Shown here piece after piece: positions 3,042-61,733 of a stretch of DNA of 64,000 nucleotides. The notes below the pieces were generated by a model. The model saw only the letters and a list, made by a program, of their open reading frames with translations, searched no databases and was not told the DNA's origin. Positions within the stretch are counted from its first letter, which is position 1. Every line of letters begins with the position of its first letter. A program made the position numbers and the translations under genes. Source of the stretch: a virus; the IMG/VR virus record IMGVR_UViG_3300046499_000591, positions 34,217-98,216 of that record; one strand, written 5' to 3'.

Positions 3042-3070
3042 AGCTTGCCCCGTCGTGTAGCTACACGCAA
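3042..3070 (-). promoter_or_regulatory. Promoter with single TGTAGCTACA operator (3056-3065)
   Basis: Minus strand: TTGCGT, 17 bp, CAAGCT. The operator sits between the two boxes. It links the HicA-like operon to the large regulon of the 38-55 kb block. Confidence 0.7.
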
Positions 3071-6544: not shown

Positions 6545-6573
6545 AGCTTCGCATCCCGTGTAGCTACAGGCAA
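6545..6573 (-). promoter_or_regulatory. Promoter with single TGTAGCTACA operator (6559-6568)
   Basis: Minus strand: TTGCCT, 17 bp, GAAGCT, with the operator between. Same design as at 3042 and in the 38-55 kb block. Confidence 0.65.
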
Positions 6574-23999: not shown

Positions 24000-24914
24000 C
24001 TAGTCCACCGTCACACCCGCCTCGGTGAGTGCCGCGTTGAGGACCCGCACTAGGTCCCGTACCCGCGCCGGATCCTTGCGGACCGCCTCGCGCACGGTCT
24101 CCGGCACGAGCAGCTTCGCGGCCCGCTCCACGACGGCGCCCGGGTCGGCGGCCGCCGCGAGCGCCGGCGTCTCCTCGGGGTCGACCCTCGTGGTGATGCC
24201 CAGGAGTGCCTTCGCCTTCTCCAGCTCGTCGGGGGTCGGCGTCGCCCCCTTCTTCGTCTCGCACGCCGTCTTCCAGATCTTGACGACCCGGTCGGCCCCG
24301 TGCTGCAACCGCACCGAGTGCAGCGCGTCGACCTGCCGGGAGGACAAGTCCTCGAGGACGTAGCCGGCGCCCCGAAGGACCGCGAGGAGCGGGAGCGTCT
24401 GCGTGATCCGGTAGCCGGTGCGTTCCGAGAGGTCGTGTTGCTCGCGGAGGTACTTCGCGAAGGACCGGTAGGTCTTCCCGTCGTTCCCCTTGATCAGCTT
24501 GTAGAGCTTGTGCTCGTGGACCCAGCACAGGTACGGGCCGGCCGCGGCGATGAACTCCTCGTTGGCCGCGTCCACCTTCGCCTTCCACTGGGCCTTCGCC
24601 CCGTGGATGCCGCGCTCGCACACGGCGAGCTGTTCGGCCGGCTCGGCGTCCGGGCTGGGCAACGCCGGCGGCACGAACGCCGTCGGCGCCACGAACGTCG
24701 GCATGACCACGGCCGGGGCCGCGGCGGGTTCCGCGGGACGGGTGGCCGGGACGGCCGCCGGCTGCGCCCCGCCGACGGGTGCGTCTCCCTGCTCCCCGCC
24801 CTTTGTCTCCTCCCACTCCGCCATCACCTGCGCGCGCGTCCGGACCACCGGCGCCGGAGCGCCCGGCGGCTCCAACCCCGTCGACGGCAGCTCCTTGGGC
24901 TTGTACTTACTCAC
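24000..24914 (-). CDS. parB: ParB-like centromere-binding protein (non-canonical)
   Basis: 304 residues from a GTG overlapping the parA stop. Residues 1-95 are a Pro/Ala-rich acidic linker; 95-200 (KTYRSFAKYLREQHDLSERT, YRITQTLPLLAVLRGAGY, SRQVDALHSVRL) look like a helix-turn-helix core; the C-terminus is helical. The GERR and other canonical ParB/Srx motifs are not seen, so this is a ParB analogue identified by operon position and nearby palindromes. It would bind the sites at 23857-23985 and recruit ParA. Confidence 0.65.
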   Translation of the reverse strand: MSKYKPKELPSTGLEPPGAPAPVVRTRAQVMAEWEETKGGEQGDAPVGGAQPAAVPATRPAEPAAAPAVVMPTFVAPTAFVPPALPSPDAEPAEQLAVCERGIHGAKAQWKAKVDAANEEFIAAAGPYLCWVHEHKLYKLIKGNDGKTYRSFAKYLREQHDLSERTGYRITQTLPLLAVLRGAGYVLEDLSSRQVDALHSVRLQHGADRVVKIWKTACETKKGATPTPDELEKAKALLGITTRVDPEETPALAAAADPGAVVERAAKLLVPETVREAVRKDPARVRDLVRVLNAALTEAGVTVD

Positions 24915-26056
24915 GCCGCCAACTCCTTCGCCACGGCGCGCATCGTCTCCGCCTGCGGGCTGTCCGGCGCGTACTCAAGGAGCGGGATCTCGTAGTCGGA
25001 CGACTCGCGGCCCTCCACGGAGTCCTTGAGGTGGGCCAGCACACCGGGCGTCGTGAGTTCGTTCCACGCGTCGTAGAACGACCGGGTCACCGTGCCCTTA
25101 CGGGAGTCGTACGCGTTGACGATGATGCCGAGCTGGTCGACGACGATGCCGGTCCGCTCGCACTGGGTGACGATCTGGTTGTTGAGGAGCTTGTACGCGC
25201 GGAACGACGACTTGTCGGCCCACACGGGGACGAGGACACCGGAGCGCTCCATCAGCTCACCCGGCCGGCGCTGCACGTAGTCGATGGCGAGGTCGAGGCC
25301 GAGCCCGAGGTTCGGCGGGCCGTCGAGGAGGACGACGTCGTAGTTGGCCTCGACGGGGGCGAGGGCGCGGGCGAGGCAGGTGTCCCGGCCGGCGCGCATG
25401 GAGGCGAGTTCGGCGTCCATGAGGAACGCGTCCTCGGAGGCCGGCAGTATGTGCAGCCGTCCACCGAACCGCTCGCCGTCGAGGGCGATGATGGACCGGG
25501 CGAGGTGCGTCGCGGCCTTGCCGAGCATGTGCTGGAGGAGGCTGTCGCCGCCGAGCGGAAGTTCGGCGACCTGGAGCCGGGCGGAGAGGTGGCCCTGCGG
25601 GTCGTAGTCGACGAGGAGGACGCGGAGCCCCATCTCGGCGAGGGCCTGGCCGACGCCGGCAGTGATGAACGTCTTTCCTACGCCGCCCTTTTGATTGGCA
25701 ATCAGGACGCGCTGCACCGGTTGCGACACGAGCCGGTGTTCCGGGGACGGGTGGGCCTTGAGCCACACCGTGACCGCTTGCGCCATGCCCTGGACCTTGG
25801 TGAGTCCGCGGGCGTCGCACTCGGCTTCGAAGCGTGCCGGGCCGCCGGGAGGGAGGAAGACGCCCCACGACTTGGCGCCCTCGACCGGGACCGCGTCGGC
25901 GGCCGGCGCGGCGTACCAGAGGTTGAGGGCGTGGGCGGCGGCGTCCTGGACGTTCACCCCGTGCTCGGCCGCACGGATCTTGAGGTCCCGCCGCATCGAC
26001 GGCATGAGGTTGACAAGCAACTTCTCGCGCGCGTTGTCAGGTGTTTCGGTCGTCAT
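24911..26056 (-). CDS. parA: ParA-family Walker ATPase with N-terminal RHH-like domain
   Basis: 381 residues from ATG 26056; TAATTT seven bases upstream suggests a leaderless transcript. Residues 13-50 (LLVNLMPSMRRDLKIRAAEH, VNVQDAAAHALNLWY) and 66-100 (GVFLPPGGPARFEAECDARG) look like tandem ribbon-helix-helix units. Deviant Walker A KGGVGKT is at 123-129, followed by VLLVDYDPQGHLS and VLLDGPPNLGL (Walker A' and B). The N-terminal DNA-binding part suggests autoregulation, as in type Ia ParA. It positions the element during cell division with ParB. Confidence 0.9.
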   Translation of the reverse strand: MTTETPDNAREKLLVNLMPSMRRDLKIRAAEHGVNVQDAAAHALNLWYAAPAADAVPVEGAKSWGVFLPPGGPARFEAECDARGLTKVQGMAQAVTVWLKAHPSPEHRLVSQPVQRVLIANQKGGVGKTFITAGVGQALAEMGLRVLLVDYDPQGHLSARLQVAELPLGGDSLLQHMLGKAATHLARSIIALDGERFGGRLHILPASEDAFLMDAELASMRAGRDTCLARALAPVEANYDVVLLDGPPNLGLGLDLAIDYVQRRPGELMERSGVLVPVWADKSSFRAYKLLNNQIVTQCERTGIVVDQLGIIVNAYDSRKGTVTRSFYDAWNELTTPGVLAHLKDSVEGRESSDYEIPLLEYAPDSPQAETMRAVAKELAA

Positions 26057-37367: not shown

Positions 37368-37606
37368 GGCACGGCCTCGACCTCATCTGCGCCGTCTTCC
37401 TCGGCTACCAGTGGGGACGCGACAACCGCGCCGCACGCCTCCTCAACTGGGCCGAGGACGCCATCACACCCGGCTGGCGCACCTGGCGATTCTGGCCCGC
37501 CGCCCCCATCGTCCTCGCCGTCATCGCCTGGCTATGGATCGCACACCCCCGCCGAACCCTCGCCAACCGCCGCTCATGGAAGCACGACAACGAGACCGCG
37601 ATGTAG
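37364..37606 (+). CDS. 80-residue membrane protein
   Basis: ATG overlaps the preceding stop. The N-terminus (LDLICAVFLGYQWG) is moderately hydrophobic; FWPAAPIVLAVIAWLWIAH is a clear transmembrane segment; basic C-terminus. Its stop codon lies inside a TGTAGCTACA copy. Last gene of the plus-strand operon. Confidence 0.5.
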   Translation: MRHGLDLICAVFLGYQWGRDNRAARLLNWAEDAITPGWRTWRFWPAAPIVLAVIAWLWIAHPRRTLANRRSWKHDNETAM

Positions 37607-37623
37607 CTACACGAGTAGCTACA
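37602..37623. promoter_or_regulatory. TGTAGCTACA site at the end of the plus-strand operon
   Basis: Exact copy at 37602-37611 containing the stop codon of the preceding gene; second copy AGTAGCTACA at 37614-37623 with one mismatch, only 12 bp away. No promoter is evident here, unlike other copies. Could act as a roadblock at the convergent junction. Confidence 0.55.
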
Positions 37624-38860: not shown

Positions 38861-39124
38861 TCAGAGTCCGAAGGTGTTGCAGTACTCGGCGATCACGCGG
38901 CAGCCGATCAGCTTGACCGACTCGGGGCGGTTGTCGCCGCGGTTGCAGCGGAACGTGTAGGCGGCGCGGATCGTGCTGAGGATGCTGTCGGTGGTCATGC
39001 GGTCCATGACGGTGTTGAGGTCGTGTCCGGGGTGGTTGCCGGCGGCGATCACCTTCGCGGCGTTCGCGGCGATCCAGGCGACGACGTCGGTGGTGGTCTT
39101 CAGGTTCACGGTGGTGGCACTCAT
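38861..39124 (-). CDS. Hypothetical accessory protein
   Basis: 87 residues. TTTDVVAWIAANAAKVIAAG, LNTVMDRMTTDSILSTIRAA, YTFRCNRGDNRPESVKLIG; helical with two late Cys. GGGAG upstream. First gene behind the promoter at 39154. Confidence 0.6.
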   Translation of the reverse strand: MSATTVNLKTTTDVVAWIAANAAKVIAAGNHPGHDLNTVMDRMTTDSILSTIRAAYTFRCNRGDNRPESVKLIGCRVIAEYCNTFGL

Positions 39125-39153: not shown

Positions 39154-39192
39154 TGTAGCTACAGCTTGCCCCATCTGTGTAGCTACACGCAA
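39154..39192 (-). promoter_or_regulatory. Promoter with paired TGTAGCTACA operators
   Basis: Operators 39154-39163 and 39178-39187, 24 bp apart. Minus strand TTGCGT, 18 bp, CAAGCT. Drives genes 39124 to 37733. Confidence 0.75.
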
Positions 39193-39280: not shown

Positions 39281-39736
39281 TCAGTAGTCGTACGGGGCGC
39301 GGCCGGAGCAGCCGTACGCGTTCGGCAGCAGGATCGTCAGCGCGTTCCACTCGCCGACCGTCTCGCACACCGTGCACTGGCCCATGGGGGCCGCGTCGTC
39401 GGCGTGCTGACGGCCGATCGCCCGCACCTGGTGCGCCCGGGTGTTCGTGGTCGTGGTCGTCGACGAGACGACGCCCAGCGCGGTCCGGCCGGCCGGGGTG
39501 AGGACCCACACCTTCACGTCGTACGTCGTCGCGGTCCCGGCGACGGTGCGCGTGCGGGTCATGACCTTGACGGCCTCGATCAGCCCGCGGTCGTGGAGGG
39601 TGCGCTCGGCGTTGCCGTCGATGGTGGTGAAGCCGGCCTCGACGCGGAGGAGGGCGGCGACGTTGCCACCGGCGATCTTGACCAGCGCCTTGCGCTGGGC
39701 GGGGGTGATGGTCACGGGCTTCGTGGCGGTGGTCAT
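39281..39736 (-). CDS. Winged-helix-like hypothetical protein with CxxC
   Basis: 151 residues. TPAQRKALVKIAGGNVAALL, AERTLHDRGLIEAVKVMTRT and TYDVKVWVLTPAGRTALGVV are like a winged helix of the DUF24/MarR layout (TP-x-GR-x-AL is typical). C-terminal CTVCETVGEW may bind zinc. A regulator is possible. Monocistronic under 39768. Confidence 0.55.
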   Translation of the reverse strand: MTTATKPVTITPAQRKALVKIAGGNVAALLRVEAGFTTIDGNAERTLHDRGLIEAVKVMTRTRTVAGTATTYDVKVWVLTPAGRTALGVVSSTTTTTNTRAHQVRAIGRQHADDAAPMGQCTVCETVGEWNALTILLPNAYGCSGRAPYDY

Positions 39737-39767: not shown

Positions 39768-39806
39768 TGTAGCTACAGCTTGCCCTACCCGTGTAGCTAC
39801 ACGCAA
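39768..39806 (-). promoter_or_regulatory. Promoter with paired TGTAGCTACA operators
   Basis: Operators 39768-39777 and 39792-39801, 24 bp apart; minus strand TTGCGT and CAAGCT at 18 bp. Confidence 0.75.
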
Positions 39807-42301: not shown

Positions 42302-42718
42302 TCATGCGGCGCGGGTGGGGCGTTCGGCGCGGCGGGCGGCTGCGAGGAGGTCGGCGTACTGGGTGCGGGTGATGCGCGGGTGCGCGTCCCAGAAGTCGAG
42401 GAGTTCCTCGGAGGCGTAGCGGGCGGCGCGTGCGGTGGGTCCGGTCCACAGGTCGCGGGGGTCGATACCGGCGGAGTGGCCGGCCTTGTTGAGGAGGTGG
42501 CCGCGGCAGGTGTGTTCGGCGGCGAGCCACTGGGCGTGGGCGTAGTCGAGCCATTCGGTGACGGCGGCGTCCCAGCGGGCTTTCACGTGGGCGCGCTTGC
42601 GGTCACGGAGGTCGCGGCGGTCGCACTCGCGGCGGATGGCTTCCTGCGTGGCTTCACCGGCGGTGCCGTACAGGGTGCACAGCTCGTCATCGGTGAGGTT
42701 CCGCAGGTCCTTCTTCAC
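42302..42718 (-). CDS. Hypothetical helical protein
   Basis: 138 residues from GTG 42718 (GGAAGGGG upstream). KDLRNLTDDELCTLYGTAGE, REAIRRECDRRDL region and TRTQYADLLAAARRAERPT; charged helices. First gene of a five-gene operon to 39869. Confidence 0.6.
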   Translation of the reverse strand: MKKDLRNLTDDELCTLYGTAGEATQEAIRRECDRRDLRDRKRAHVKARWDAAVTEWLDYAHAQWLAAEHTCRGHLLNKAGHSAGIDPRDLWTGPTARAARYASEELLDFWDAHPRITRTQYADLLAAARRAERPTRAA

Positions 42719-42739: not shown

Positions 42740-42777
42740 TGTAGCTACATAATATGCCGTCGTGTAGCTACACACAA
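42740..42777 (-). promoter_or_regulatory. Promoter with paired TGTAGCTACA operators
   Basis: Operators 42740-42749 and 42763-42772, 23 bp apart. Minus strand TTGTGT, 17 bp, TATTAT: the best -10 of the family. Confidence 0.8.
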
Positions 42778-43814: not shown

Positions 43815-44162
43815 TCAGGCGGCGAGGGCCATCTGCTCGACGGCCGCGATGTACTCGGCCTTGCGGGGCTTGTAGTTGGCGCGGAGGACGGCGACCTGCG
43901 CGGCGGTGTAGTGGTGGCGCACCTTGCCCTGGTTGCGGTCGTTGCGGTCGTTGCGGACGACCCGCACCGGCTTGACGCCGAGGCGCTTGGCGACGGAGCG
44001 GAGGCCGCCCGCGACGCCCTTGGCGGTCTCGGTCGCGACACCGGCGGCGATGGCGTGGGTGGCGATCGAGCGGGCCCGGCCCCGGCGGATGGAGGAGGCG
44101 AGGCGGTGGGCGGCGGCGCGCTCCCGGACGATGCGGCGGGCCTTGGCGGTGTTCTTGTTCAT
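43815..44162 (-). CDS. Very basic hypothetical protein
   Basis: 115 residues. KNTAKARRIVRERAAAHRLA, IRRGRARSIATHAIAAGVAT, VRVVRNDRNDRNQGKVRHHY, ANYKPRKAEYIAAVEQM. Strongly basic, so nucleic-acid binding is likely. NDRNDRN is encoded by a short triplet-type repeat. CAGGAGG upstream. First gene of its operon. Confidence 0.6.
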   Translation of the reverse strand: MNKNTAKARRIVRERAAAHRLASSIRRGRARSIATHAIAAGVATETAKGVAGGLRSVAKRLGVKPVRVVRNDRNDRNQGKVRHHYTAAQVAVLRANYKPRKAEYIAAVEQMALAA

Positions 44163-44203: not shown

Positions 44204-44242
44204 TGTAGCTACACTCTAAGGCGCATGTGTAGCTACACGCAA
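44204..44242 (-). promoter_or_regulatory. Promoter with paired TGTAGCTACA operators
   Basis: Operators 44204-44213 and 44228-44237, 24 bp apart; minus strand TTGCGT, 18 bp, TAGAGT. Confidence 0.8.
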
Positions 44243-44639: not shown

Positions 44640-44993
44640 TCAGCCCATGCGGCGGCTCTCCTGGAGGAAGGAGCGGGCGCCGTCGCGCGCCAGGCGGTCG
44701 GTCTCGTTCGTGATGGCGCACGTGCTCTGCGACTCGCCGCGCATGAGCACCTCCATGCAGTCCTCGCGGACGCTCTCCACGGCCTTGGCGGCGCCGGCCT
44801 TCTCCATGCGGCGGAGGACCTGGCGCCAGGGCTGCGCCTTGGCCTGGGCCTCCATGACCGGCTTGAGGGTGTAGGAGTCGATCTGGCGGCCGGCGGTGAC
44901 GACGTCGACCAGGGCGGCGCGGGCGCTCTCCTCGCGGCGGACGGCCATCTCGGCGGTGAAGCGGACGTTCTCGGCGTAGTCGGTGTTCGTCAT
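44640..44993 (-). CDS. Helical hypothetical protein
   Basis: 117 residues. ENVRFTAEMAVRREESARAA, LKPVMEAQAKAQPWRQVLRR, REDCMEVLMRGESQSTCAIT. AAGGAG upstream. No family recognised. Confidence 0.6.
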   Translation of the reverse strand: MTNTDYAENVRFTAEMAVRREESARAALVDVVTAGRQIDSYTLKPVMEAQAKAQPWRQVLRRMEKAGAAKAVESVREDCMEVLMRGESQSTCAITNETDRLARDGARSFLQESRRMG

Positions 44994-45035: not shown

Positions 45036-45074
45036 TGTAGCTACACCTTATGCCGATCGTGTAGCTACACGCAA
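45036..45074 (-). promoter_or_regulatory. Promoter with paired TGTAGCTACA operators
   Basis: Operators 45036-45045 and 45060-45069; minus strand TTGCGT and an AT-richer CATAAG box at 17 bp. Confidence 0.75.
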
Positions 45075-45185: not shown

Positions 45186-45434
45186 TCAGTCCTGGTCGGC
45201 GCAGACGATGAAGCGGGGGGTGCGGCCGAGGATGGCCACCCAGACGAACTCCTCGCCCTTGCGGATACCGGCGAGCTGGTTGTTCTCGGTCCAGCGCAGG
45301 ACCGTCTTGCGGTGGCCGCGCTCGGTGATCTCGGAGGTGACGACCTCGGCCGGGTAGAACGTTCCGATGGAGGCGACCTTGGTGCCGGTGGCGAGGGGCT
45401 TGAAGGCGGGGGCGGCGGCGGTGGTCTTCTTCAT
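45186..45434 (-). CDS. Small beta-rich basic protein
   Basis: 82 residues. FKPLATGTKVASIGTFYPAE, VVTSEITERGHRKTVLRWTE, EFVWVAILGRTPRFIV. Pattern of a small beta barrel. GAAGGAG upstream. Monocistronic. Confidence 0.6.
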   Translation of the reverse strand: MKKTTAAAPAFKPLATGTKVASIGTFYPAEVVTSEITERGHRKTVLRWTENNQLAGIRKGEEFVWVAILGRTPRFIVCADQD

Positions 45435-45476: not shown

Positions 45477-45514
45477 TGTAGCTACAGACTAAGGCGTCGT
45501 GTAGCTACACGCAA
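45477..45514 (-). promoter_or_regulatory. Promoter with paired TGTAGCTACA operators
   Basis: Operators 45477-45486 and 45500-45509, 23 bp apart; minus strand TTGCGT, 17 bp, TAGTCT. Confidence 0.8.
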
Positions 45515-46061: not shown

Positions 46062-46613
46062 TCAGTGGGCGGCGTGAAGCGGGATCGGCAGGGCCTCGCC
46101 GGTGAAGGGGAGTTTCGCGAGGTGGGCGCGCAGCTCCTCGGCGGCGGCGAAGCGGCGGCGGGACTGCTCGGCGAACGGGCTGGACTCGTCGACCTCGCGG
46201 AACGGGGAAATGATCAGGTTTCCGCCCTCGGCGCGGCCGAGGAGGGCGTCGTGGAAGCCCCAGCCGCGGCCGTAGAGGCCGACCTTGATGGTGAGGGTGG
46301 TGAACGCCTCGGGGCCGCCCATGCGTTCGGTGAGGGCGGCGGCGACGCGGGCCGCGTAGACCATGGCCGGGGAGATGAACGGGACGTCGACCGCGGTCGG
46401 TCGGGTGGCCTCAACGCCGGCCGAGGTGATCTTGACCTTCCAGCCCTTGTCGCCCAGCGTTTCGGCGATGCGGCGGAGGCGGTACTCGGCGACGTAGACG
46501 GCGGAACCGGTCGGGGCGGCGATGAGGACGCGGTGCTCGTCGAGGGCCTCCATGCGGCCGTAGCGGGTGCCGCGCAGAATGTCGGCGGCGACGGCCTTGG
46601 TGATGGTGTGCAT
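46062..46613 (-). CDS. Hypothetical alpha/beta protein
   Basis: 183 residues. MEALDEHRVLIAAPTGSAVY, VAEYRLRRIAETLGDKGWKV, VYAARVAAALTERMGGPEAF, YGRGWGFHDALLGRAEGGNL. Two similar basic strands suggest a nucleic-acid-binding domain. GAAGGAA upstream. Confidence 0.6.
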   Translation of the reverse strand: MHTITKAVAADILRGTRYGRMEALDEHRVLIAAPTGSAVYVAEYRLRRIAETLGDKGWKVKITSAGVEATRPTAVDVPFISPAMVYAARVAAALTERMGGPEAFTTLTIKVGLYGRGWGFHDALLGRAEGGNLIISPFREVDESSPFAEQSRRRFAAAEELRAHLAKLPFTGEALPIPLHAAH

Positions 46614-46654: not shown

Positions 46655-46692
46655 TGTAGCTACAGACTAAGGCGCCATGTAGCTACACGCAA
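46655..46692 (-). promoter_or_regulatory. Promoter with paired TGTAGCTACA operators
   Basis: Operators 46655-46664 and 46678-46687; minus strand TTGCGT, 17 bp, TAGTCT. Confidence 0.8.
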
Positions 46693-47700: not shown

Positions 47701-47910
47701 TCAGGCGGCGGCGACGGCGGCGACGGCCTCGCGGCGGAGGTCGTAGCCCCAGCCCAGGAAGCCGCGGGCGTAGTCCTCGATGGGCTGGCCGGCGGTGTTG
47801 AACGCGCGGTGTGCGCCGAGGTGGGTGACGACGTAGCCCTTGCGGACGCCGGCGACGAGGACGTCGATGCGGCCGCGGCCGACGCGGCGGGTGGTGGTCT
47901 GGGTGTTCAT
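47701..47910 (-). CDS. Small basic protein
   Basis: 69 residues. TTTRRVGRGRIDVLVAGVRK, YVVTHLGAHRAFNTAGQP. Beta strands with basic residues, Ala-rich helical end. GGGAG upstream. Confidence 0.55.
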   Translation of the reverse strand: MNTQTTTRRVGRGRIDVLVAGVRKGYVVTHLGAHRAFNTAGQPIEDYARGFLGWGYDLRREAVAAVAAA

Positions 47911-47951: not shown

Positions 47952-47989
47952 TGTAGCTACAGACTATGCCGTCGTGTAGCTACACGCAA
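47952..47989 (-). promoter_or_regulatory. Promoter with paired TGTAGCTACA operators
   Basis: Operators 47952-47961 and 47975-47984; minus strand TTGCGT, 17 bp, TAGTCT-like box. Confidence 0.8.
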
Positions 47990-48049: not shown

Positions 48050-48598
48050 TTACGGCTGGACGACGGCGAGGCGGGAGACGTACCGCTGCGTGAGGCCGGC
48101 GTGCCACGCCATCAGCTGGGCGTCCTCCCGGCTGGCGAACTCCAGCCCGTCGTACATCGGGTGACGGACGACCAGGCCCGTGCCGCCGAGCGGGTTGGGC
48201 AGGGACTCGTCGATGAGGCTGACGTTGAGGCGCGCGCCGGCGATGTTCGACCCGGTGACGTAGGAGACGCCCCACTTGGTCGCGGCGACCGTGACGACGT
48301 CGGCCGCCCACAGTCCGGGCCGGCGGGCCGCGACGGCGGCCGCCAGGGTCGCGGCGAGCCAGTAGTCGAACGCGTCGCCGCGGTCGTCGCGGAACATCCG
48401 CAGCGCGGTGCCGAGGTTGTCGGCGACGGGCCGCTCGTAGTCGCGGCCGTAGGTGACGAACGGCAGCAGCTCCTCGCGGATGACGTGGATGAACTCGGCG
48501 CGGGTGATGACGCCCTCCCGGCTGGGCGCGGCGACCTCGAGGGGGAGGGTGCGCCACCACTGGGCCAGGTGTATCTGCGTCTCGTGTGCTCCGAACAT
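48050..48598 (-). CDS. Hypothetical protein
   Basis: 182 residues. IHLAQWWRTLPLEVAAPSRE, FIHVIREELLPFVTYGRDYE, MFRDDRGDAFDYWLAATLAA, EFASREDAQLMAWHAGLTQR. Mixed fold, no family recognised. GGAGG upstream. Monocistronic. Confidence 0.6.
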   Translation of the reverse strand: MFGAHETQIHLAQWWRTLPLEVAAPSREGVITRAEFIHVIREELLPFVTYGRDYERPVADNLGTALRMFRDDRGDAFDYWLAATLAAAVAARRPGLWAADVVTVAATKWGVSYVTGSNIAGARLNVSLIDESLPNPLGGTGLVVRHPMYDGLEFASREDAQLMAWHAGLTQRYVSRLAVVQP

Positions 48599-48637: not shown

Positions 48638-48676
48638 TGTAGCTACAGACTAAGGAAGCTATGTAGCTACACGCAA
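48638..48676 (-). promoter_or_regulatory. Promoter with paired TGTAGCTACA operators
   Basis: Operators 48638-48647 and 48662-48671, 24 bp apart; minus strand TTGCGT, 18 bp, TAGTCT. Confidence 0.8.
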
Positions 48677-49719: not shown

Positions 49720-50415
49720 TCAGCCGCGGGGGCGCTCGGTCCAGTCCACTTCCACGTGCCCGTAGTAGTTGACGTGGAAGTAGTCGACGCTCGAGTCGCT
49801 GCCGTCGAAGTTGTAGGCGCCGTGGATCTCGGAGAGGGCGTCGATGATGCCGCGGAGCTGCACCCCGGGGACCCACACCGTCTGGCCCGGGCGGTACGGG
49901 TCACGCTGCTCGACGTAACCCCAGCCCTGCTCCGGGAGGTTGTAGATGCGGACGTCGATGGCGTTTCCGTGGCGGGCGCGGACGGAGACCTTCATCCCCT
50001 TCGGCATGGTGGCGAGCGGGGCGAGCGGGTCGACGAGGGCGACGGCCGCGCCGGTCGCGAGCTTGTCGTCGACCTTGCGGGCGAGCTTGATGTCCTCGCG
50101 GATGCGCTTGGCGATCTCGACGACGGACAGGTTCTTGACCTCCTCGTACCGGGAGCCGTACCAGACCTCCGGCAGCCGGTAGCCGTGCCAGACGGCGGCC
50201 TTACCGTCCGCCTCGGTGACCTGGCCGGCCTCCTTCGCCGCGGCGACGGCCCGGTCGAGCATGCGGCCGGCGGCGGCCTTCTCGCCCTCGCCGGTCCGCG
50301 CGTGGAAGTACAGGTTCTCGAGGATCCAGACCTTCTTCATGGCGCGGTCCGTCGGCTCCCGCTTCACGTCGGTGATGCGGGTCCGGGTCTCGGGGGCCTC
50401 GGTGGTGGTGCTCAT
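49720..50415 (-). CDS. LPD29-like protein with DUF2786-like N-terminus
   Basis: 231 residues. KKVWILENLYFHARTGEGEK, AAAGRMLDRAVAAAKEAGQV (DUF2786-like helices), then VVEIAKRIREDIKLARKVDD, GMKVSVRARHGNAIDVRIYN and ALSEIHGAYNFDGSDSSVDY, like large-polyvalent-protein domain 29 (SVR...I-x-V...FD-x-x-x-D). Such domains occur in mobile-element proteins thought to counter host defence. Operon with the metallopeptidase. Confidence 0.55.
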   Translation of the reverse strand: MSTTTEAPETRTRITDVKREPTDRAMKKVWILENLYFHARTGEGEKAAAGRMLDRAVAAAKEAGQVTEADGKAAVWHGYRLPEVWYGSRYEEVKNLSVVEIAKRIREDIKLARKVDDKLATGAAVALVDPLAPLATMPKGMKVSVRARHGNAIDVRIYNLPEQGWGYVEQRDPYRPGQTVWVPGVQLRGIIDALSEIHGAYNFDGSDSSVDYFHVNYYGHVEVDWTERPRG

Positions 50416-50455: not shown

Positions 50456-50493
50456 TGTAGCTACAGACTAAGCCAATGTGTAGCTACACGCAA
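50456..50493 (-). promoter_or_regulatory. Promoter with paired TGTAGCTACA operators
   Basis: Operators 50456-50465 and 50479-50488; minus strand TTGCGT, 17 bp, TAGTCT. Confidence 0.8.
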
Positions 50494-50896: not shown

Positions 50897-51550
50897 TCAG
50901 GCCGCTGCGGGCTCCGCGTCCAGCGCGGTCACGTGGTCGAGACCGACGTGAATGGCGCACGGCCACCACTCGCCGATGCGGTAGAGCGCGTATCCGTCAC
51001 AGTCGAGGTCGCACTCCTCGGTCCGGTAGCAGGACTCGACGCGGAAGGTGCCGCCGGACAGCTGAGCGAGCGAGCCGTGGTACCGGACCACCGTGCCGTT
51101 CTCCAGCCACACCGGGCGCACCGGCTTCGGGGCCTTGTACGGCTCGGGCTCGACGTCGACCGGGAGGCCCTGGCCGGCCGTCTGGCGGGCGAAGACGACC
51201 TGGGCCGCGCCGTTGCGCAGGTTGGCGGACCAGCCGGCGGAGAAGAAGTCATCGTTCTCCGCGTCGTACCACTCGACGTGAACGCGGGTGCCGTAGCCCT
51301 GGAGGAGCACGCCGACGACGCCGGCCTCGGGGTGGACGACCCGCCAGCCCCGCATGGTGAGGAGGAACTGCTCCTCGTTCCAGCCGCGGGTGTTGAGGGC
51401 GGCGGAGGCCCACTCCCACTCGGACAGCTCGGGGGGAAGCATGCCCTCGAGCGTCACGGTGACGTCGCCGAGGTGGCGGAGGACCATCTCGCCCGCGGCG
51501 TCCCGCTCGCCGGCGGTGACGTTGCGGGTGGTGAAGGTGTAGTTCTTCAT
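50897..51550 (-). CDS. Hypothetical protein
   Basis: 217 residues. NVTAGERDAAGEMVLRHLGD, WNEEQFLLTMRGWRVVHPEA, YGTRVHVEWYDAENDDFFSA, VESCYRTEECDLDCDGYALY (Cys cluster). No family recognised. GGAGG upstream. Confidence 0.6.
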   Translation of the reverse strand: MKNYTFTTRNVTAGERDAAGEMVLRHLGDVTVTLEGMLPPELSEWEWASAALNTRGWNEEQFLLTMRGWRVVHPEAGVVGVLLQGYGTRVHVEWYDAENDDFFSAGWSANLRNGAAQVVFARQTAGQGLPVDVEPEPYKAPKPVRPVWLENGTVVRYHGSLAQLSGGTFRVESCYRTEECDLDCDGYALYRIGEWWPCAIHVGLDHVTALDAEPAAA

Positions 51551-51594: not shown

Positions 51595-51633
51595 TGTAGC
51601 TACAGCTTGCCCCGAGCGTGTAGCTACACGCAA
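51595..51633 (-). promoter_or_regulatory. Promoter with paired TGTAGCTACA operators
   Basis: Operators 51595-51604 and 51619-51628, 24 bp apart; minus strand TTGCGT and CAAGCT at 18 bp. Confidence 0.75.
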
Positions 51634-52088: not shown

Positions 52089-52784
52089 TCAGGCGCCGGC
52101 GGCCTTGCGGGCGCGGGCGGTGGCGCGGTTCTCGCGGTATCCGATGCACGTCCGGCAGGTGATGTCTCCGGCGTTGACGAACCGGTACTTCGTCAGGCGG
52201 CTGTTCTGGCCCATGGTCCGGCACAGCGGGTAGACGTTGCGGTCGTCGTCGTCCTGGCCCGCCGTGGTGTGGATCTCGCCGCCGTTGACGGCGATGCACA
52301 TGAAGAGGGTGTCCTCGTCGGGGATGACGATGTTGTCGCGCCAGTCGACGTTCAGGGCCTCCCGCCAGGCGCGGGCGGCAGTGAGGCGACCCTCGGCGTG
52401 CATGCGGGCGGCGTGCGCGGCGACGTTGGCCTTCCGGTCGGCGGGCAGCACGTTGTAGTTGTAGCGGTCGTTCCGGTTGCTGGGCTCGGTCATCCCGCGC
52501 GGGCCGACGGGCCGGTACAGGCGGCCGATCGCTTCGCCGGCCTCCTCCTTGGTGGCGAAGAAGCCGACCATGCCGTCCTTGGCGCGGCCCTTCGGGGACC
52601 AGGCGGCGAAGTTCCCGCGGGGCAGGTTGGCGGCGGTCTCGTCGATGAGGCTCCCGATGTGCTTCTGGTCGAGCCACACGTCGTAGTGGGGGCGGTCGCC
52701 GTCCTGGGTGATGACGACGACACCAGCCGCCGCGGCGGTGACCTCGGCCGGCAGTTCCTCGTCGTACTCCTGGGTGGTGTTCAT
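52089..52784 (-). CDS. Hypothetical protein
   Basis: 231 residues. VVVITQDGDRPHYDVWLDQK, FAAWSPKGRAKDGMVGFFAT, MCIAVNGGEIHTTAGQDDDD, ITCRTCIGYRENRATARARK with a CxxC. Mixed fold, no family recognised. Ribosome site GGACACC weak. First gene behind 52818. Confidence 0.55.
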   Translation of the reverse strand: MNTTQEYDEELPAEVTAAAAGVVVITQDGDRPHYDVWLDQKHIGSLIDETAANLPRGNFAAWSPKGRAKDGMVGFFATKEEAGEAIGRLYRPVGPRGMTEPSNRNDRYNYNVLPADRKANVAAHAARMHAEGRLTAARAWREALNVDWRDNIVIPDEDTLFMCIAVNGGEIHTTAGQDDDDRNVYPLCRTMGQNSRLTKYRFVNAGDITCRTCIGYRENRATARARKAAGA

Positions 52785-52817: not shown

Positions 52818-52855
52818 TGTAGCTACACTCTAGGGTGTTGTGTAGCTACACGCAA
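52818..52855 (-). promoter_or_regulatory. Promoter with paired TGTAGCTACA operators
   Basis: Operators 52818-52827 and 52841-52850, 23 bp apart; minus strand TTGCGT, 17 bp, TAGAGT. Confidence 0.8.
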
Positions 52856-53726: not shown

Positions 53727-54428
53727 TCAGCGGGTGGTGTCGACGGGCTGGCCGGTGACGTCGACCGCCGGGCCGCGGGAGACCAGCTCGACCACGTCGC
53801 CGGGCGACTTGGTGAAGACGAAGTAGCCGGGGTGTTCGCCGGCCGGCGGGACGGTGTGGACCCGCAGGTAGTTACCGGCGTGGAGGTACTCGACCTTCCA
53901 CACCATCCGCGTCGCCCCGTGCAGGTCGATACGGGCCCCGGAGCGCAGCGTGTGGGCGGCGACAGGCCCGTGGTCGACGTTGGTTCGCTTCGCCGTGGCC
54001 GACGTGGGGAGCATGGTGTGGGTCAGTCGGATCTCGACCGCCCGCAGTTCGAAGCCGGGCTCGGCGAGGGCCTGCATGTCGGTGATGTAGCCGGCCACAT
54101 CGTCCGCGGTGTTGAGCAAGGCCGAGGTGGCGTGGCCCTTCCAATCGCCGCCGGCCATCCGCCACCGGATCACGTACGACACGTCGTCGCGGAGGACTTC
54201 GCGGTGCCGGTCGTGCACGTACTCGGGGCCGAGTCCGTATGAGGTGGCGCAGCGGAGGGCGCGGTCGTAGTCGTGGAAGCCGATCCATTCCCGCTCGTCG
54301 GGGCCGATGGCGACCGCCCATCGGGACAGCGGTGCTTCGTCATCGGTGAGGGCGTCGGCCCAGGCGGCGGCGATGTTCTGCGTGAGTGCCGTGTTCGGCT
54401 CGCTCGCGTCGGGGTTGGTGGTGTCCAT
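53727..54428 (-). CDS. Hypothetical protein
   Basis: 233 residues. DERE-WIGFHDYDRALRCATS region, then YVIRWRMAGGDWKGHATSAL, FELRAVEIRLTHTMLPTSAT, VVELVSRGPAVDVTGQPV. Two beta-rich segments. GAAGGAG upstream. No family recognised. First gene of a three-gene operon. Confidence 0.6.
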   Translation of the reverse strand: MDTTNPDASEPNTALTQNIAAAWADALTDDEAPLSRWAVAIGPDEREWIGFHDYDRALRCATSYGLGPEYVHDRHREVLRDDVSYVIRWRMAGGDWKGHATSALLNTADDVAGYITDMQALAEPGFELRAVEIRLTHTMLPTSATAKRTNVDHGPVAAHTLRSGARIDLHGATRMVWKVEYLHAGNYLRVHTVPPAGEHPGYFVFTKSPGDVVELVSRGPAVDVTGQPVDTTR

Positions 54429-54459: not shown

Positions 54460-54497
54460 TGTAGCTACATGATATGGGGATGTGTAGCTACACGCAA
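54460..54497 (-). promoter_or_regulatory. Promoter with paired TGTAGCTACA operators
   Basis: Operators 54460-54469 and 54483-54492; minus strand TTGCGT, 17 bp, TATCAT. Confidence 0.8.
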
Positions 54498-54578: not shown

Positions 54579-54749
54579 TCACCGGCTGCGGGGGCGGTGC
54601 TCGAAGCAGCGCCAGCCGGCCACGGTCCAGCGGGCCGGCTTCCCGCACAGGGGTCGGCCGGTGTCGCACTTCCCGCGGGTGATGAAGCGGCCGGCGTCGG
54701 CAGCCTCGGGGGCGTCGGTGGTCTCGGGGGCCGTGTCGGCGGTGGTCAC
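54579..54749 (-). CDS. Small zinc protein, paralogue of 33402-33611
   Basis: 56 residues from GTG overlapping the upstream stop. CDTGRPLCGKPARWTVAGWR then CFEHRP matches the zinc site of the protein after ssb almost residue for residue. Acidic N-terminus. Function unknown. Confidence 0.6.
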   Translation of the reverse strand: MTTADTAPETTDAPEAADAGRFITRGKCDTGRPLCGKPARWTVAGWRCFEHRPRSR

Positions 54750-54991
54750 TTGGACAGCACGCCCTTCGCGAACCGCGGGACGCCGGCGCCGGTCATCTCG
54801 AGGACGCCCTTGGCGACCAGGTTCCGGCGGGTGAGGTAGGAGACGTGACCGGGGTCGTACTGGAGGCCCTCGGGGCCGCTGCCCGCCTCGCCGTTCATGG
54901 CGACGTACCGCTTCATCGCGGCGACCTCGCCGCGGGTGAGGCGGACGACGCGGCCGTCCGCGAGGCTGACTAGTCGGCTGCGCTTCGCCAT
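54746..54991 (-). CDS. Small basic protein
   Basis: 81 residues from ATG 54991 with GAAGGAG. LVSLADGRVVRLTRGEVAAM, LQYDPGHVSYLTRRNLVAKG, VLEMTGAGVPRFAKGVL. Looks like a compact winged helix. Directly behind the divergent control region at 55.0 kb. Confidence 0.6.
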   Translation of the reverse strand: MAKRSRLVSLADGRVVRLTRGEVAAMKRYVAMNGEAGSGPEGLQYDPGHVSYLTRRNLVAKGVLEMTGAGVPRFAKGVLSK

Positions 54992-55033: not shown

Positions 55034-55073
55034 TGTAGCTACAGACTAAGGGTAGTGTGTAGCTACGCGTCAA
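55034..55073 (-). promoter_or_regulatory. Minus-strand promoter with operator pair at the divergent hub
   Basis: Exact operator 55034-55043 and TGTAGCTACG 55058-55067. Minus strand TTGACG (near consensus -35), 19 bp, TAGTCT. Confidence 0.7.
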
Positions 55074-55091
55074 GCGTCGAGCCCGGACCCG

Positions 55092-55147
55092 TGTACCTAC
55101 ACACCCCAGCTTGCGCGTGTAGCTACATGGCCTGTACCGTGGCCGGC
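55092..55147 (+). promoter_or_regulatory. Plus-strand promoter of RHH gene with TGTAGCTACA operator
   Basis: TTGCGC 55111-55116, 18 bp, TACCGT 55135-55140, seven bases before the ATG (leaderless). Exact operator 55118-55127 in the spacer; degenerate TGTACCTACA at 55092-55101. This is the only exact operator within a plus-strand promoter. Confidence 0.75.
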
Positions 55148-55444
55148 ATGATGACTCCCGCATACCTCAAAGACACGCACACCCCGCCCCGTCAGGTCCG
55201 CCTCGGCGACGAGTGGTACGAGTTCCAGGCCGCAATCGAGCTGATGGGCGGCGGCGCCGTCGGCGGCGGAAGCGGACGCGCCGAGAACCTGCGCGAGTAC
55301 CTCGCCTGGTTCAACCGTGAGCCCGGCGCCACCATGCCGAAGCGTCCGCCGGCCGAGATGCGCGAGCAGATCGTCAAGCGCGGCGCCCAGCTCAAGAAGG
55401 AGGCCGAGGAGAAGGCCAAGGCCCGCACACGGAAGAAGGCCTGA
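55148..55444 (+). CDS. RHH-like DNA-binding protein, candidate master repressor
   Basis: 98 residues. RQVRLGDEWYEFQAAIELMG then GRAENLREYLAWFNREPG follows the ribbon-helix-helix pattern R-x-V-R-L-x-D-E-W-x-x-F...; the tail (RGAQLKKEAEEKAKARTRKK) is a basic helix. RHH dimers bind short palindromes and often tandem sites, fitting TGTAGCTACA pairs. An operator in its own promoter predicts autoregulation. Standing divergent to the regulated block supports the inference. A second ATG follows directly and may be the start. Gene 15906 is the other RHH-like candidate but has a different palindrome. Confidence 0.6.
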   Translation: MMTPAYLKDTHTPPRQVRLGDEWYEFQAAIELMGGGAVGGGSGRAENLREYLAWFNREPGATMPKRPPAEMREQIVKRGAQLKKEAEEKAKARTRKKA

Positions 55445-55567: not shown

Positions 55568-55966
55568 CTACGGCTGCACGTGCAGATTCGGCACCATCAC
55601 CCGGCCCGGCCCCATCGCCGAGAGCCGCGTCCACTGCCGGGCCTTCTCCTCGAAGATGTCGATCAGGCCCGCAAAGGCCGGCTTGCTGCGCCGCAGCTCG
55701 TCCGCCCACGCGGCCGTCAACTCCCGGCCGTCGACCAACACCTGCCCGTCCAGGCCGACCGCCGTGGAGATGACCCGACCCCTCGACAGCCTGTGATAGC
55801 TGACGTCGCAGCCGTCCTCCATCAGCCCGGCGCGCACAGCCTCGTCCCACGCCTCCGCCAGCCGCTCCAGCTCGCTGGGCCCCACCGTGATCGAGTGCTG
55901 CGGCGGCTCCAGCCGCTTCCGCTTGTCCCGCCGCGCCTGCTTGGCGCGCTTGGCGTCACGTCCCAT
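55568..55966 (-). CDS. Basic hypothetical protein
   Basis: 132 residues from ATG 55966 (GAAGGAG). GRDAKRAKQARRDKRKRLEP is a basic head; SITVGPSELERLAEAWDEAV, SYHRLSRGRVISTAVGLDGQ, IFEEKARQWTRL the body. A possible plasmid-borne small protein; no family recognised. Confidence 0.6.
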   Translation of the reverse strand: MGRDAKRAKQARRDKRKRLEPPQHSITVGPSELERLAEAWDEAVRAGLMEDGCDVSYHRLSRGRVISTAVGLDGQVLVDGRELTAAWADELRRSKPAFAGLIDIFEEKARQWTRLSAMGPGRVMVPNLHVQP

Positions 55967-58200: not shown

Positions 58201-59403
58201 TTGTCCGCGAACACGCCCAGCAGCCGCGCCCGGTGGACCGAGCGTGTCCGCGACGCGGCCCTGTGGCTGCGGGACACCGGCCTCGGCGGCTTCGGCTTCG
58301 CCCTGGTGCTCGTCGTCGCCGTCTCCGGCTGGGCCGCCTCGTTCATCGGCCTCCACGACTTCGGCGTCGAACACATGGGGTTCGGCGACCGGGCCGCCTG
58401 GCTCGTCCCGATCACCTTCGACGGCGCGCCGGCCGGCCTCTCCATCGTCGTCGCCCGGGCCGCGACCCACGGCCGTTCCGCCCCGGTGTGGCGGCTGCTC
58501 ATCGTCGGCTTCACCGGACTGTCGTCGTGGATCAACTATCAGCACATCGAGGACCCCCTCGGCCGTGAGGTCGCCTCGTTCATGCCGCCGTCCGCGGTCA
58601 TCTTGTTCGAGGGCCTGATGTCCGAGGCCCGGGCCGCCGCGATCCGACGCCGGCGCGCCATGCTCGGCGAGGTCGCCGCGGTCCGCCTGCACCCGGCCCG
58701 CTGGATCTTCGCCCCCCGGGACACCGCCAAGATCGTCCGCGGCTACGTCCTCGGCACGGCCCTGCCGGCCGGGTTCGCCGAGGCGGCCGTCGCGGGGGAG
58801 CGGACCGCGGACCAAGCGCCGGCGGACCGGACCGACACCGAGCGGACCGTCGGACCGGACCGGACCGTGTCGCTCGAGAAGACGGACCGGACCGCGGACC
58901 GGACCGCCGGACCGGACCGGACCGACACCACGGACCGGACCGCGGACCACACGGACCGGACCACCGGACCGGACCCGGACCACCAGCGGACCACGGACCA
59001 GACGGACCGGACCGAGCGGACCGCGGACCACCCGGACCACGACGAGCGGACCGCGGACCGCGCGGACCGGACCGCCCCAGAGGCGGACCGGACCACCGGA
59101 CCGGACCACAAGGACCCCAAGCCCCGCAAGGCCCGGACCGCTCCGGACCAGACCGCGGACCACACGGACCGGACCACCAAGACCGCCGCCACGGACCGGA
59201 CCACCGACGAGACGGACCGGACCGAAGACCTGGTCCTCACCGACCTCGAGCGGACCGCCGTCGCGATCCTCCAGACCGCGGACCGGTCCATCAGCAAGCG
59301 GTCCCTCGGCGAGGTCATCCGCCAGGACCTCAAGGGGTCCATCTCCACGGACCGGGCCGTCGAGATCGCCCGCCACTACCGCACCCTTCGCGCCGCGTCC
59401 TGA
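58201..59403 (+). CDS. DUF2637 membrane protein of transfer operon with DRT repeat region
   Basis: 400 residues from TTG 58201 with GAAGGAG. Residues 25-140 hold four hydrophobic segments (FALVLVVAVSGWAASFIGLH, WLVPITFDGAPAGLSIVVAR, WRLLIVGFTGLSSWI, VILFEGLM): DUF2637, as in Streptomyces plasmid spread proteins. Residues 195-345 are an Asp-Arg-Thr-rich repeat tract encoded by GGACCG repeats. The C-terminus (LTDLERTAVAILQTADRSIS) is a winged-helix-like tail. Likely works with the FtsK-type translocase in plasmid transfer or intramycelial spread. Confidence 0.75.
   Translation: MSANTPSSRARWTERVRDAALWLRDTGLGGFGFALVLVVAVSGWAASFIGLHDFGVEHMGFGDRAAWLVPITFDGAPAGLSIVVARAATHGRSAPVWRLLIVGFTGLSSWINYQHIEDPLGREVASFMPPSAVILFEGLMSEARAAAIRRRRAMLGEVAAVRLHPARWIFAPRDTAKIVRGYVLGTALPAGFAEAAVAGERTADQAPADRTDTERTVGPDRTVSLEKTDRTADRTAGPDRTDTTDRTADHTDRTTGPDPDHQRTTDQTDRTERTADHPDHDERTADRADRTAPEADRTTGPDHKDPKPRKARTAPDQTADHTDRTTKTAATDRTTDETDRTEDLVLTDLERTAVAILQTADRSISKRSLGEVIRQDLKGSISTDRAVEIARHYRTLRAAS
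58800..59235 (+). repeat. GGACCG(G) direct-repeat tract inside DUF2637 gene
   Basis: About fifteen copies of CGGACCGGACC at irregular spacing, plus one GACCCGGA near 58974. GACCCGGA-type 8-mers are the recognition repeats of TraB of some Streptomyces plasmids, so this tract may be a clt-like loading site. Confidence 0.5.
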
Positions 59404-59435
59404 CGGACCGGACCAACCTAGAAAGGACCGCCGCC

Positions 59436-59780
59436 ATGCGCAGCACCGACGACAGGTTCACCCTCGCCGCGATCACCACCGCCGCAGTGCTGGCGGCCTT
59501 CCTCCTCGCCCACGCCGTCGCCTGCATCCCCGGACCGCTCGCGCCCCCGGTGGTCCTCACCTGGGCCACCACCTACACCGCCGCCGTGCTCGGCCTGGCC
59601 CGGGCCCTGCACCTCCCGCCGGCGCGCACCCTGTGCGCCGCCACCCTCGTCGTCGCCGCCACCACCCGGATCCTCCTCGCCGGCCTCGGACACGTCCTCG
59701 AGGGCGCCCTGCGCATCCTCGACCGGCTCAGCGACGCCAGCCTCACCATGCTCAACACCACCCCCGCGAAGGCGGCCTGA
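59436..59780 (+). CDS. Small membrane protein of transfer operon
   Basis: 114 residues. LAAITTAAVLAAFLLAHAVA, VVLTWATTYTAAVLGLARAL and LCAATLVVAATTRILLAGLG are three hydrophobic helices. AGAAAGGA upstream. Position between DUF2637 and translocase genes suggests a spread (Spd-type) protein; sequence alone does not prove it. Confidence 0.6.
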   Translation: MRSTDDRFTLAAITTAAVLAAFLLAHAVACIPGPLAPPVVLTWATTYTAAVLGLARALHLPPARTLCAATLVVAATTRILLAGLGHVLEGALRILDRLSDASLTMLNTTPAKAA

Positions 59781-59783
59781 ACC

Positions 59784-61733
59784 ATGACGCAGACCCCTAC
59801 CGAGCCCCGCGTCTATGTCCCCGAGCCGATGACGACGAAGACAGACGACGCGACGACGTACCGTCTGACCAGGGGTTTTGCGTCGTCGTCGTCATCGTCG
59901 TCGTCATCCAGGCCCCTCGTGGTGCGCTGCGCCGGCTGGCTGGTGCACACCCGCGACTGGGTCTCCCGCCGCCGCTACGAGCTGGCACCCGTGGCCGGCA
60001 CCTCCACCCTGTCCCTGCTCGGCTGGTGGCAGGAGGGCATCGGCCCGACCCTGTCGTACGGGGCGCTCGCCGGCGTGGCGGCCACCGCGGCCGTGCTCGG
60101 CCTCAAGCACAAGAACGCCACGGTCACGCAGGCCGCGGCCGGCCTCACCGTGGCCCTGGGAGACATAGCCACCGCCACCGGGTTCGGCCCCGGCCCCGAG
60201 TCGGCGACCGCGTGGGCCCTGACCACCGGCCTGACGTACTGGATCTACGGGCCGTGGCTGACCGCGCAGCGCAACGCCCGTATGAAGCTGCACATCGACA
60301 CCGTCAAGGCGAAGGGCGCCCTGCCTAACGCCCTCGGGCTCGAGGCCGCCGACCCGGGCCTGATCGGGGCGACCTCGGAGGAGACCGCGCTCCGCCGTGC
60401 CATCCACGCTCTCACCGGCGCTGCGCCCCTGGACGTCGTGGCGTTCCACCGCAACGAACACGGCTGGTCGGCCATCGTGGTCATGCCCCCGGGCCGCACG
60501 ACCGCGCCGGCCGCGATCATCGCCAAGCGGGTGCAGCTCGCGGCGAACCTCGGCCAGCCCGGCAAGCTGGCCCTCGCCGCCGGGTCCGCCGACAACGAGC
60601 TGATCGTGAAGCTGTCCACCGTCGACGCCCTCGCCGGCACCCTGCCCCTGACCGAGCCCGGGGTGACGACGTGCCGCGAGCCCGTGCTCCTCGGCGCCGA
60701 CGAGGACGGCAACCCGATCCACCTCACGCTGATGTACCGGCACACCCTCATCGCCGGCGCCTCGGACTGGGGGAAGTCCGGCATCGTCAACCTGATCATC
60801 AAGCGGTTGAACCGGTGCCTGGACGCCGACCTGTACGGCATCGACATGAAGCCCGGCGCGCCGGAGCTCGGCCCGTGGGAGCCGGTCATGGCCGCGGCCG
60901 TGGCCAAGAACCCGGCGCAGGCCCGGGCGCTGCTGGAGTGGATACGCGGCGAGTGTGACCGGCGCGGCGCGATCCTCGCCGAGCTGACCCGCAAGGCGCT
61001 GGCGGAGGGCAAGGGCCCGGTCCGCAAGTGGGTGCCCGGTGTCCACGGCAAGGCCATCTTCGTCTTCACCGACGAACTCGCCGAGCTGGTCCGCCAGGAC
61101 CCCGAGCTTGCCGAGCTGTACGAGTCGCTGCTCGCCATCGCCCGATTCCTCGCGATCCACTTCGTCTCGGCCACCCAGCAGCCGTCGCGCAAGGTGTTCG
61201 GCGGCAGCACGGACGCCCGCGGTAACTACGCCAACCGGCTCTCCACCCGCGCCGGCGAGGCCGGCCACGCCCCGTTCGTGTTCGGGCAGGGCTGCCAGGC
61301 CAAGGGCTGGCGGCCGGAGACGCTGGACATGCCCGGCAAGTTCATGCTCCAGACGGCGGAACTGACCGACCCGAAGGTCTACCGGGCCGAGTACGTCACG
61401 GACATGGATATCGCCGCTGACGTCGGCTTCTACTACTCCGACAAGGCCGACACCGAGCCGCAGCCGGCCATCACCGATGAGCCGTGGGTCGAGCAGTTCG
61501 CGCCGCTGCGGTTCCCGAACGGCGACCTCGTGCGGCCCGGGCAGTGGCCGGACCTCTGGGAGCAGTTCCAGGCCCTCGGGTCGGCGACGAAGAAGGAACT
61601 CGCCGCCACGTGCGGGATCTCCCGCGATACCGCCATGCGCGCGTTCGACGAGTGGGCGAAGCACGGCGTCGCCGGCCGCCGCGACGGCCGCGCCACCCGC
61701 TATTACGTGAACGACCCCGAGGAGGCGCAGTGA
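59784..61733 (+). CDS. FtsK/SpoIIIE-type conjugative DNA translocase (TraB/TraSA-like)
   Basis: 649 residues. N-terminal hydrophobic segments (about 65-110, 140-160), Walker A GASDWGKS at 325-332, Walker B KAIFVFTDELAE at about 423-434, and HFVSATQQPSRKVFGGSTDA (sensor/arginine region). The C-terminal 70 residues (KKELAATCGISRDTAMRAFD, KHGVAGRRDGRATRY) are a winged helix as in the gamma domain that binds transfer sequences. Streptomyces plasmids use one such protein to move double-stranded DNA. A nine-serine run at residues 34-42 is encoded by TCG/TCA triplets. Confidence 0.9.
   Translation: MTQTPTEPRVYVPEPMTTKTDDATTYRLTRGFASSSSSSSSSRPLVVRCAGWLVHTRDWVSRRRYELAPVAGTSTLSLLGWWQEGIGPTLSYGALAGVAATAAVLGLKHKNATVTQAAAGLTVALGDIATATGFGPGPESATAWALTTGLTYWIYGPWLTAQRNARMKLHIDTVKAKGALPNALGLEAADPGLIGATSEETALRRAIHALTGAAPLDVVAFHRNEHGWSAIVVMPPGRTTAPAAIIAKRVQLAANLGQPGKLALAAGSADNELIVKLSTVDALAGTLPLTEPGVTTCREPVLLGADEDGNPIHLTLMYRHTLIAGASDWGKSGIVNLIIKRLNRCLDADLYGIDMKPGAPELGPWEPVMAAAVAKNPAQARALLEWIRGECDRRGAILAELTRKALAEGKGPVRKWVPGVHGKAIFVFTDELAELVRQDPELAELYESLLAIARFLAIHFVSATQQPSRKVFGGSTDARGNYANRLSTRAGEAGHAPFVFGQGCQAKGWRPETLDMPGKFMLQTAELTDPKVYRAEYVTDMDIAADVGFYYSDKADTEPQPAITDEPWVEQFAPLRFPNGDLVRPGQWPDLWEQFQALGSATKKELAATCGISRDTAMRAFDEWAKHGVAGRRDGRATRYYVNDPEEAQ

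Follow-up and report, generated by a model that had tools for sequence, protein, structure and literature searches.

The question raised by this locus is which protein reads TGTAGCTACA, a short palindrome repeated along a phage genome, and whether the small gene at 55148 encodes that reader. The DNA analysed, referred to as the window, covered 64,000 nucleotides and corresponded to bases 34217–98216 of a 98,216-bp viral record. The preliminary description had taken the 55148 product for a ribbon-helix-helix (RHH) protein and the probable master repressor of the TGTAGCTACA regulon, and this interpretation was supported here in a form wider than proposed. Judged from the sites and from the relatives of the protein, it very probably switches off its own gene and approximately fourteen phage promoters via one short palindrome. 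The best explanation, in which we place high confidence, is that it would be the DNA-binding repressor of the element, with TGTAGCTACA read by its N-terminal strand, a 14-promoter regulon and autoregulation.

The element is a tailed phage. The first 34 kb of the record, before the window, encodes the large terminase subunit, a portal/head fusion, a tape measure protein, an endolysin and a ParB-like methyltransferase. The window encodes ParA (24911–26056, with its own neighbour gene in the ORF map), a tyrosine recombinase and an FtsK/SpoIIIE protein, and the phage could perhaps also be a phage-plasmid. DNA similarity to named records was minimal (2%, to plasmids of Streptomyces and to a single phage of this genus); therefore, the host is probably an actinobacterium, with Streptomyces favoured. 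The DUF2637 and FtsK/SpoIIIE proteins at 58201–61733 are as on actinobacterial conjugative plasmids, here in a tailed phage with ParA/ParB. A second RHH-type protein is encoded at 4028–4252 (Pfam RHH_5 match, E 3.7e-4).

The gene at 55148 and its control region

The putative repressor gene occupies 55148–55444 on the plus strand and encodes 98 residues; a further in-frame ATG lies at 55127. Its putative promoter (55111–55140, plus strand) was read as a -35 element TTGCGC at 55111–55116 and a -10 element TACCGT at 55135–55140, followed by 7 nt and the ATG. An exact TGTAGCTACA operator lies within the spacer of this promoter, at 55118–55127, and points to autoregulation. The other upstream sites are an exact copy at 55034–55043 and copies with one mismatch at 55058–55067 and 55092–55101, the latter being TGTACCTACA (the related loci L089 and G005 also have a one-mismatch site). 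The stretch from 55034 to 55127 is exactly 94 bp, with two exact and two one-mismatch sites, which agrees with the four operator-like sites originally counted in a 94-bp divergent region. The suggested switch layout was also recovered, with 55118 in the repressor promoter and 55034 and 55058 in the opposite promoter, and the upstream neighbour was divergent in 89 of 93 relatives.

The transcript had been described as apparently leaderless. Among the relatives, a TANNNT -10-like box placed 6 or 7 nt before the start, without a Shine-Dalgarno sequence, occurred in 73 of 93 members and in 13 of 775 other genes, with several in-frame starts allowed per family member and a single start per control gene. 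Therefore, the leaderless reading is well supported, despite the wider choice of start codons in the family. The statement that no other plus-strand gene has an exact operator in its promoter held, with two caveats. A plus-strand ORF at 3139 lies 74 bp downstream of the site at 3056, but the CTTGCG element of this site faces the minus-strand ORF 2800–3000; the TGTAGCTACA site at record position 4417 adjoins plus-strand ORFs. No plus-strand gene follows the 55148 gene in the window, and the next ORF (55568–55966) is on the minus strand.

The RHH-like character of the protein had good but not complete support. The putative strand comprises residues 14–20 or thereabouts (PRQVRLG). The AlphaFold2 monomer model of the window protein showed an extended N-terminus, helices at 22–32 and 43–55, and a long third helix at 69–97 (pLDDT 85.8), and that of a short family member showed an extended N-terminus with helices at 17–27 and 32–43 (pLDDT 89.4). 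An extended N-terminus with two helices, as predicted in both models, is the expected look of an RHH monomer. Moreover, PHROG 6506 ("Arc-like repressor") matched 40 of 69 family members (best 1.4e-9) and Pfam RHH_1 matched 5 of 69 (best 0.019, below the cut-off), whereas the window protein itself matched no Pfam, PHROG or NCBIfam model. With the monomer models as queries, Foldseek found nothing at E ≤ 0.001 (PDB and BFVD for the window protein, PDB for the short member), and VIA aligned 23 chains, with a best Z of 2.7 and no RHH entry listed. These structure-search results were read as uninformative because the RHH sheet needs a partner and cannot form in a monomer. A search of PDB sequences with the family profile found no relative, and its ten matches (E up to 1) were chance, antibody and designed-barrel matches. 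Hence, the RHH pattern claimed from the sequence is supported by PHROG 6506 within the family and agrees with the look of the monomer models, but it was not recovered by Foldseek or VIA, and the window protein itself fits no family model.

Operator pairs across the window

With at most one mismatch allowed, TGTAGCTACA occurred 34 times in the window (31 exact and 3 one-mismatch copies), compared with a mean of 0.14 and a largest count of 2 in shuffled sequences; the whole 98,216-bp record had 32 exact copies. Twenty-eight of the window copies are arranged in 14 tandem pairs with a 23- or 24-bp spacing, between 37.7 and 55.0 kb. All 14 lie upstream of minus-strand ORFs, which confirms that the 55148 gene is divergent from the regulated block. 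In the minus-strand reading, CTTGCG stands immediately ahead of the first palindrome in 12 of the 14 pairs, in 11 the last base of a TANNNT -10 box coincides with the first base of the second palindrome, and the ORF starts 22–45 bp downstream of the pair. Thus, the promoters resemble the sigma-70 type, and their spacer and start region are taken up by the palindromes. Pairs in the related records G004 and G005 have the same geometry, with TTG at -35 in 20 of 21 and 7 of 8 distinct pairs, respectively.

The minus-strand pair nearest to the repressor gene, at 55034–55067, belongs to the divergent promoter, has one mismatch in its second site and precedes ORF 54746–54991. The -10 box TAGTCT accompanies the pairs at 50456–50488 (ORF 49720–50415), 48638–48671 (ORF 48050–48598), 47952–47984 (ORF 47701–47910), 46655–46687 (ORF 46062–46613) and 45477–45509 (ORF 45186–45434). 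TAGAGT is found at 52818–52850 (ORF 52089–52784) and 44204–44237 (ORF 43815–44162), TATCAT at 54460–54492 (ORF 53727–54428), TAAGGT at 45036–45069 (ORF 44640–44993) and TATTAT at 42740–42772 (ORF 42302–42718). CAAGCT takes the place of the -10 box at 51595–51628 (ORF 50897–51550), 39768–39801 (ORF 39281–39736) and 39154–39187 (ORF 38861–39124). Isolated exact operators lie at 3056–3065, flanked by CTTGCG and GGGGCAAGC, and at 6559–6568, upstream of the minus-strand ORF 6269–6511. A second site class carries an invariant GGGCAAGCT at the -10 position (39154, 39768, 51595 and 3056 in the window; 7 of 21 pairs in G004 and 2 of 8 in G005), and GGGCAAGCT forms an inverted repeat with the GCTTGCG preceding the first palindrome. 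At 37602–37623, two sites only 12 bp apart (37602 and 37614, the second being AGTAGCTACA) lie at the convergence of the rightward and leftward gene blocks and are possibly a roadblock.

The pairs might be read not as promoter operators but as roadblocks of the cluster A mycobacteriophage kind ("stoperators") or as RNA hairpins that stop transcription. Every pair folds as a strong hairpin, although this is so by construction; the fixed GGGCAAGCT replaces the -10 box in 3 of 14 pairs in the window and in the G004 and G005 pairs counted above, and the sites at 37602 and 37614 stand at a convergence point. However, the canonical -10 in 11 of 14 pairs, the TTG of the -35 element at the right spacing in nearly all of them and the nearby gene starts argue for promoters. 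In cluster A phages (L5, Bxb1), helix-turn-helix repressors act at directional 13-bp stoperators mostly away from promoters (PMC6550527), whereas the window sites are palindromic 10-bp pairs at promoters and thus differ from stoperators as defined there. The likeness to cluster A consists of a single repressor whose sites, a few tens in number, are distributed along an actinobacteriophage early arm, and of sites that diverge with their repressors (PMC6550527). Roadblocks or hairpins are therefore an unlikely account of the pairs, and the reading as promoter operators is retained.

Relatives of the protein and co-occurrence with the operator

By sequence comparison, the 55148 protein falls into a family of small, RHH-like and so far unannotated proteins, which occur in prophages of actinobacteria, in viral contigs and on a few linear plasmids. 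An orthologue with 94% identity was found in another 99-kb viral record. The 155-kb linear plasmid CP108999.1 from Streptomyces sp. NBC_00708 carries one with 64% identity, and exact palindromes precede its domain by 340, 316 and 44 bp. In the third large viral record (G005), the orthologue adjoins 2 of the 21 sites. The scans with the family alignment comprised 12 Streptomyces genome loci and at least 80 viral loci, and the 93 members used were the 96 hits minus three second domains (L074, L084 and L086), with L016 excluded.

The co-occurrence of protein and palindrome was evaluated from both sides. A scan of viral contigs for exact pairs gave 36 stretches on 34 contigs, and 28 of the 34 encode a family member of 60–77 residues, usually adjacent to the sites. 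No family member was found in the other six operator-bearing contigs. In three of them (L025, L033 and L037), a different small protein that looks RHH-like by eye lies within approximately 1 kb, with family support weak at best, and in L013, L017 and L038 no convincing RHH-like protein was seen. Starting from the protein, two like palindromes spaced by 21–26 or 33–38 bp were present within 180 bp upstream in 79 of 93 members, compared with 6 of 1860 control pieces, which were random stretches of the same loci. The pair was not found in the stretch tested for 14 of 93 members, of which L045 has one farther upstream. A simpler palindrome score gave 94 rows for the 93 loci (L084 twice), and its controls (38 of 1880) possibly include real operators.

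No family member was found with four query proteins among 50,697 deposited phage records, indicating that isolates had not brought the family to light. Among phage records, DNA similarity to the block was confined to Streptomyces phage TurkishDelight (2% covered); in the 43.6 kb examined, no family member and no repeated AT-type palindrome was seen. Literature searches on RHH, actinobacterial phage, operator and repressor topics, mostly outside subscription journals, gave no paper on the family among the matches listed. For the TGTAGCTACA string, the matches listed were, by their titles and the beginnings of their abstracts, unrelated to phage regulation.

Operator classes, the strand and the place of the repressor

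Members without TGTAGCTACA have different palindromes at the same positions, and these palindromes follow the type of the strand. The strand types TQHRSVR, TTARPVR and RRQIA pair with TGTACGTACA, TTNRVVR with TGCATATGCA, PRKFR and PRRFR with TGTGGCCACA, and KLRG[VI]R with TGGTTAACCA. In a clade with nearly identical helices, Gln goes with GTAGCTAC cores (L096, L103, L123 and L131) and Lys or Arg goes with GTGGCCAC (L115, L117, L124 and L130), while L121 (Arg) has mixed sites. The exceptions to the rule that Gln means GTAGCTAC are L088 (Pro) and L121 (Arg), together with L094, L100 and L106, which have Gln but TGTACGTACA.

The distance between operators was correlated with the distance between strands (Mantel r 0.60, 0 of 5000 permutations). 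Given the rest of the domain, the partial correlation was 0.38 (0 of 5000), whereas the rest of the domain, given the strand, added little (0.19, 1 of 5000). These tests used n = 61, with 25 of the 93 members left out because they had no perfect-palindrome pair and 7 because they were duplicates (32 in total). A tree built without the strand columns had few columns, 35 of 57 forks open and 9 operator changes; therefore, the Mantel values are not corrected for ancestry, and on well-supported branches two independent contrasts were obtained, too few for a sign test. If alternate residues of the strand face the DNA, operators should differ in step with the strands over and above the remainder of the domain; such a correlation was seen, but ancestry leaves two supported contrasts. 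Furthermore, when four palindromes were counted in 22 records hand-picked from over 90, each was confined to its own class except for one stray TGTAGCTACA in G019. There were 32, 3, 3, 3, 43, 21, 3 and 2 copies of TGTAGCTACA in the eight records of its class, plus one in the record of the mixed L121; TGTACGTACA occurred in five records only (3, 3, 2, 2 and 1), and TGCATATGCA and TGTGGCCACA in three each (both 3, 2 and 3), all matching their classes.

Instead, TGTAGCTACA might be bound by a host factor or by another of the element's proteins (GntR at 965, AlpA/MerR-like at 57590, XRE-like at 62574 or RHH-like at 4028), which would make the 55148 gene a mere target. GntR proteins often bind palindromes, the protein at 4028–4252 has its RHH_5 match, GntR domains exceeded the cut-off in 5 of 14 records searched, and AlpA-like homologues were present in all three multi-operator records. 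However, in these 14 records, chosen from the 22 and searched for AlpA-like and GntR proteins, AlpA was absent from 11, including single-switch records with the same operator, and GntR was not over the cut-off in 9, including the nearest multi-operator relative G004 with its 43 operators. Moreover, the palindrome changes along with the strand residues of the 55148 family itself. Another binder is thus improbable, slightly more so than the roadblock reading. The two-way co-occurrence, the strand covariation and the absence of GntR and AlpA from some relatives support the claim that the 55148 product, rather than the GntR or AlpA-like protein, would read TGTAGCTACA. The putative rank of master repressor is a fair inference from the operators at 14 promoters and at its own.

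In the mechanism that we infer, an RHH-like dimer would read one TGTAGCTACA palindrome through its N-terminal strand (PRQVRLG), and dimers would probably bind cooperatively at two palindromes 23–24 bp apart. At the 14 minus-strand promoters, the first palindrome lies after the -35 element in the spacer and the second overlaps the end of the -10 element and the start point, so that bound protein would exclude RNA polymerase. The single palindrome in the spacer of the leaderless promoter would provide autoregulation, and the regulon would be silent in the lysogen or plasmid state. In most relatives, the protein may control one divergent switch with 2–3 sites, whereas in the lineage of the window the switch would have expanded into a regulon comprising at least a dozen promoters. 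According to the copy numbers, the usual member serves one switch (most relatives have 2–3 sites at a single switch); the lineage of the window, with 21–43 copies (43 in G004 and 21 in G005), is therefore the exception. It is reasonably likely, on this evidence, that these proteins form an undescribed actinobacterial phage repressor family with at least six operator classes (TGTAGCTACA, TGTACGTACA, TGCATATGCA, TGTGGCCACA, TGGTTAACCA and others) reached through changes in the short strand. Such a family would be a natural recognition code, including Gln to Lys/Arg with A to G at base 4 of the half-site inside one clade, and one of its lineages would have placed copies of the operator pair at no fewer than a dozen promoters, so that what began as a local switch became a regulon spanning the genome.

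Some RHH partition proteins act in addition as repressors of their own operon, and the element has ParA and a ParB-like gene; hence, the 55148 protein might be a centromere-binding partition protein, with the dispersed sites as its centromere. However, ParA is 30 kb away with its own neighbour, the sites are tied to single promoters across 17 kb and single-switch relatives have just 2–3 of them, which makes this role very improbable. An autoregulating antitoxin, which could be suggested by the small size and RHH-like character of the protein, by the operator in its promoter and by weak RelB and VapB matches (1 of 69 members each), is the least probable of all, as no toxin gene shares the operon, the next ORF being on the opposite strand, and operators stand at 14 other promoters.

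Arc and Mnt of phage P22 are RHH repressors. Together with PHROG 6506, they resemble the window system in being small phage RHH-type proteins with short palindromic half-sites and a divergent control region. In contrast, the window protein has no PHROG match of its own, and its operators are separate full 10-bp palindromes, 23–24 and 33–35 bp apart; unlike Arc and Mnt, its lineage has a genome-wide regulon and a leaderless repressor gene. C1 of P1 is a phage-plasmid repressor with many dispersed operators and is similar in this respect, but it is a non-RHH protein and its operators are asymmetric. Repressors that read DNA with a strand and have mutually exclusive operators would let RHH recognition rules be read from evolution, testable with natural pairs, and the family would supply small orthogonal repressors for actinobacteria. 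Moreover, the three related large phages with 21–43 sites, compared with the others with 2–3, could show how a phage switch grows into a regulon.

Two further arrangements were observed among the relatives. In 10 loci of the TGCATATGCA class (e.g., L092, L093 and L109), the first gene on the divergent side encodes a small RHH-looking protein (weak RHH_1, E 0.057), which suggests a two-repressor switch. In L015, L040, L074 and L086, the repressor gene is followed by a gene for a protein that we take to be GIY-YIG from its appearance, and in L074 the strand-helix motif is present a second time, in this following protein.
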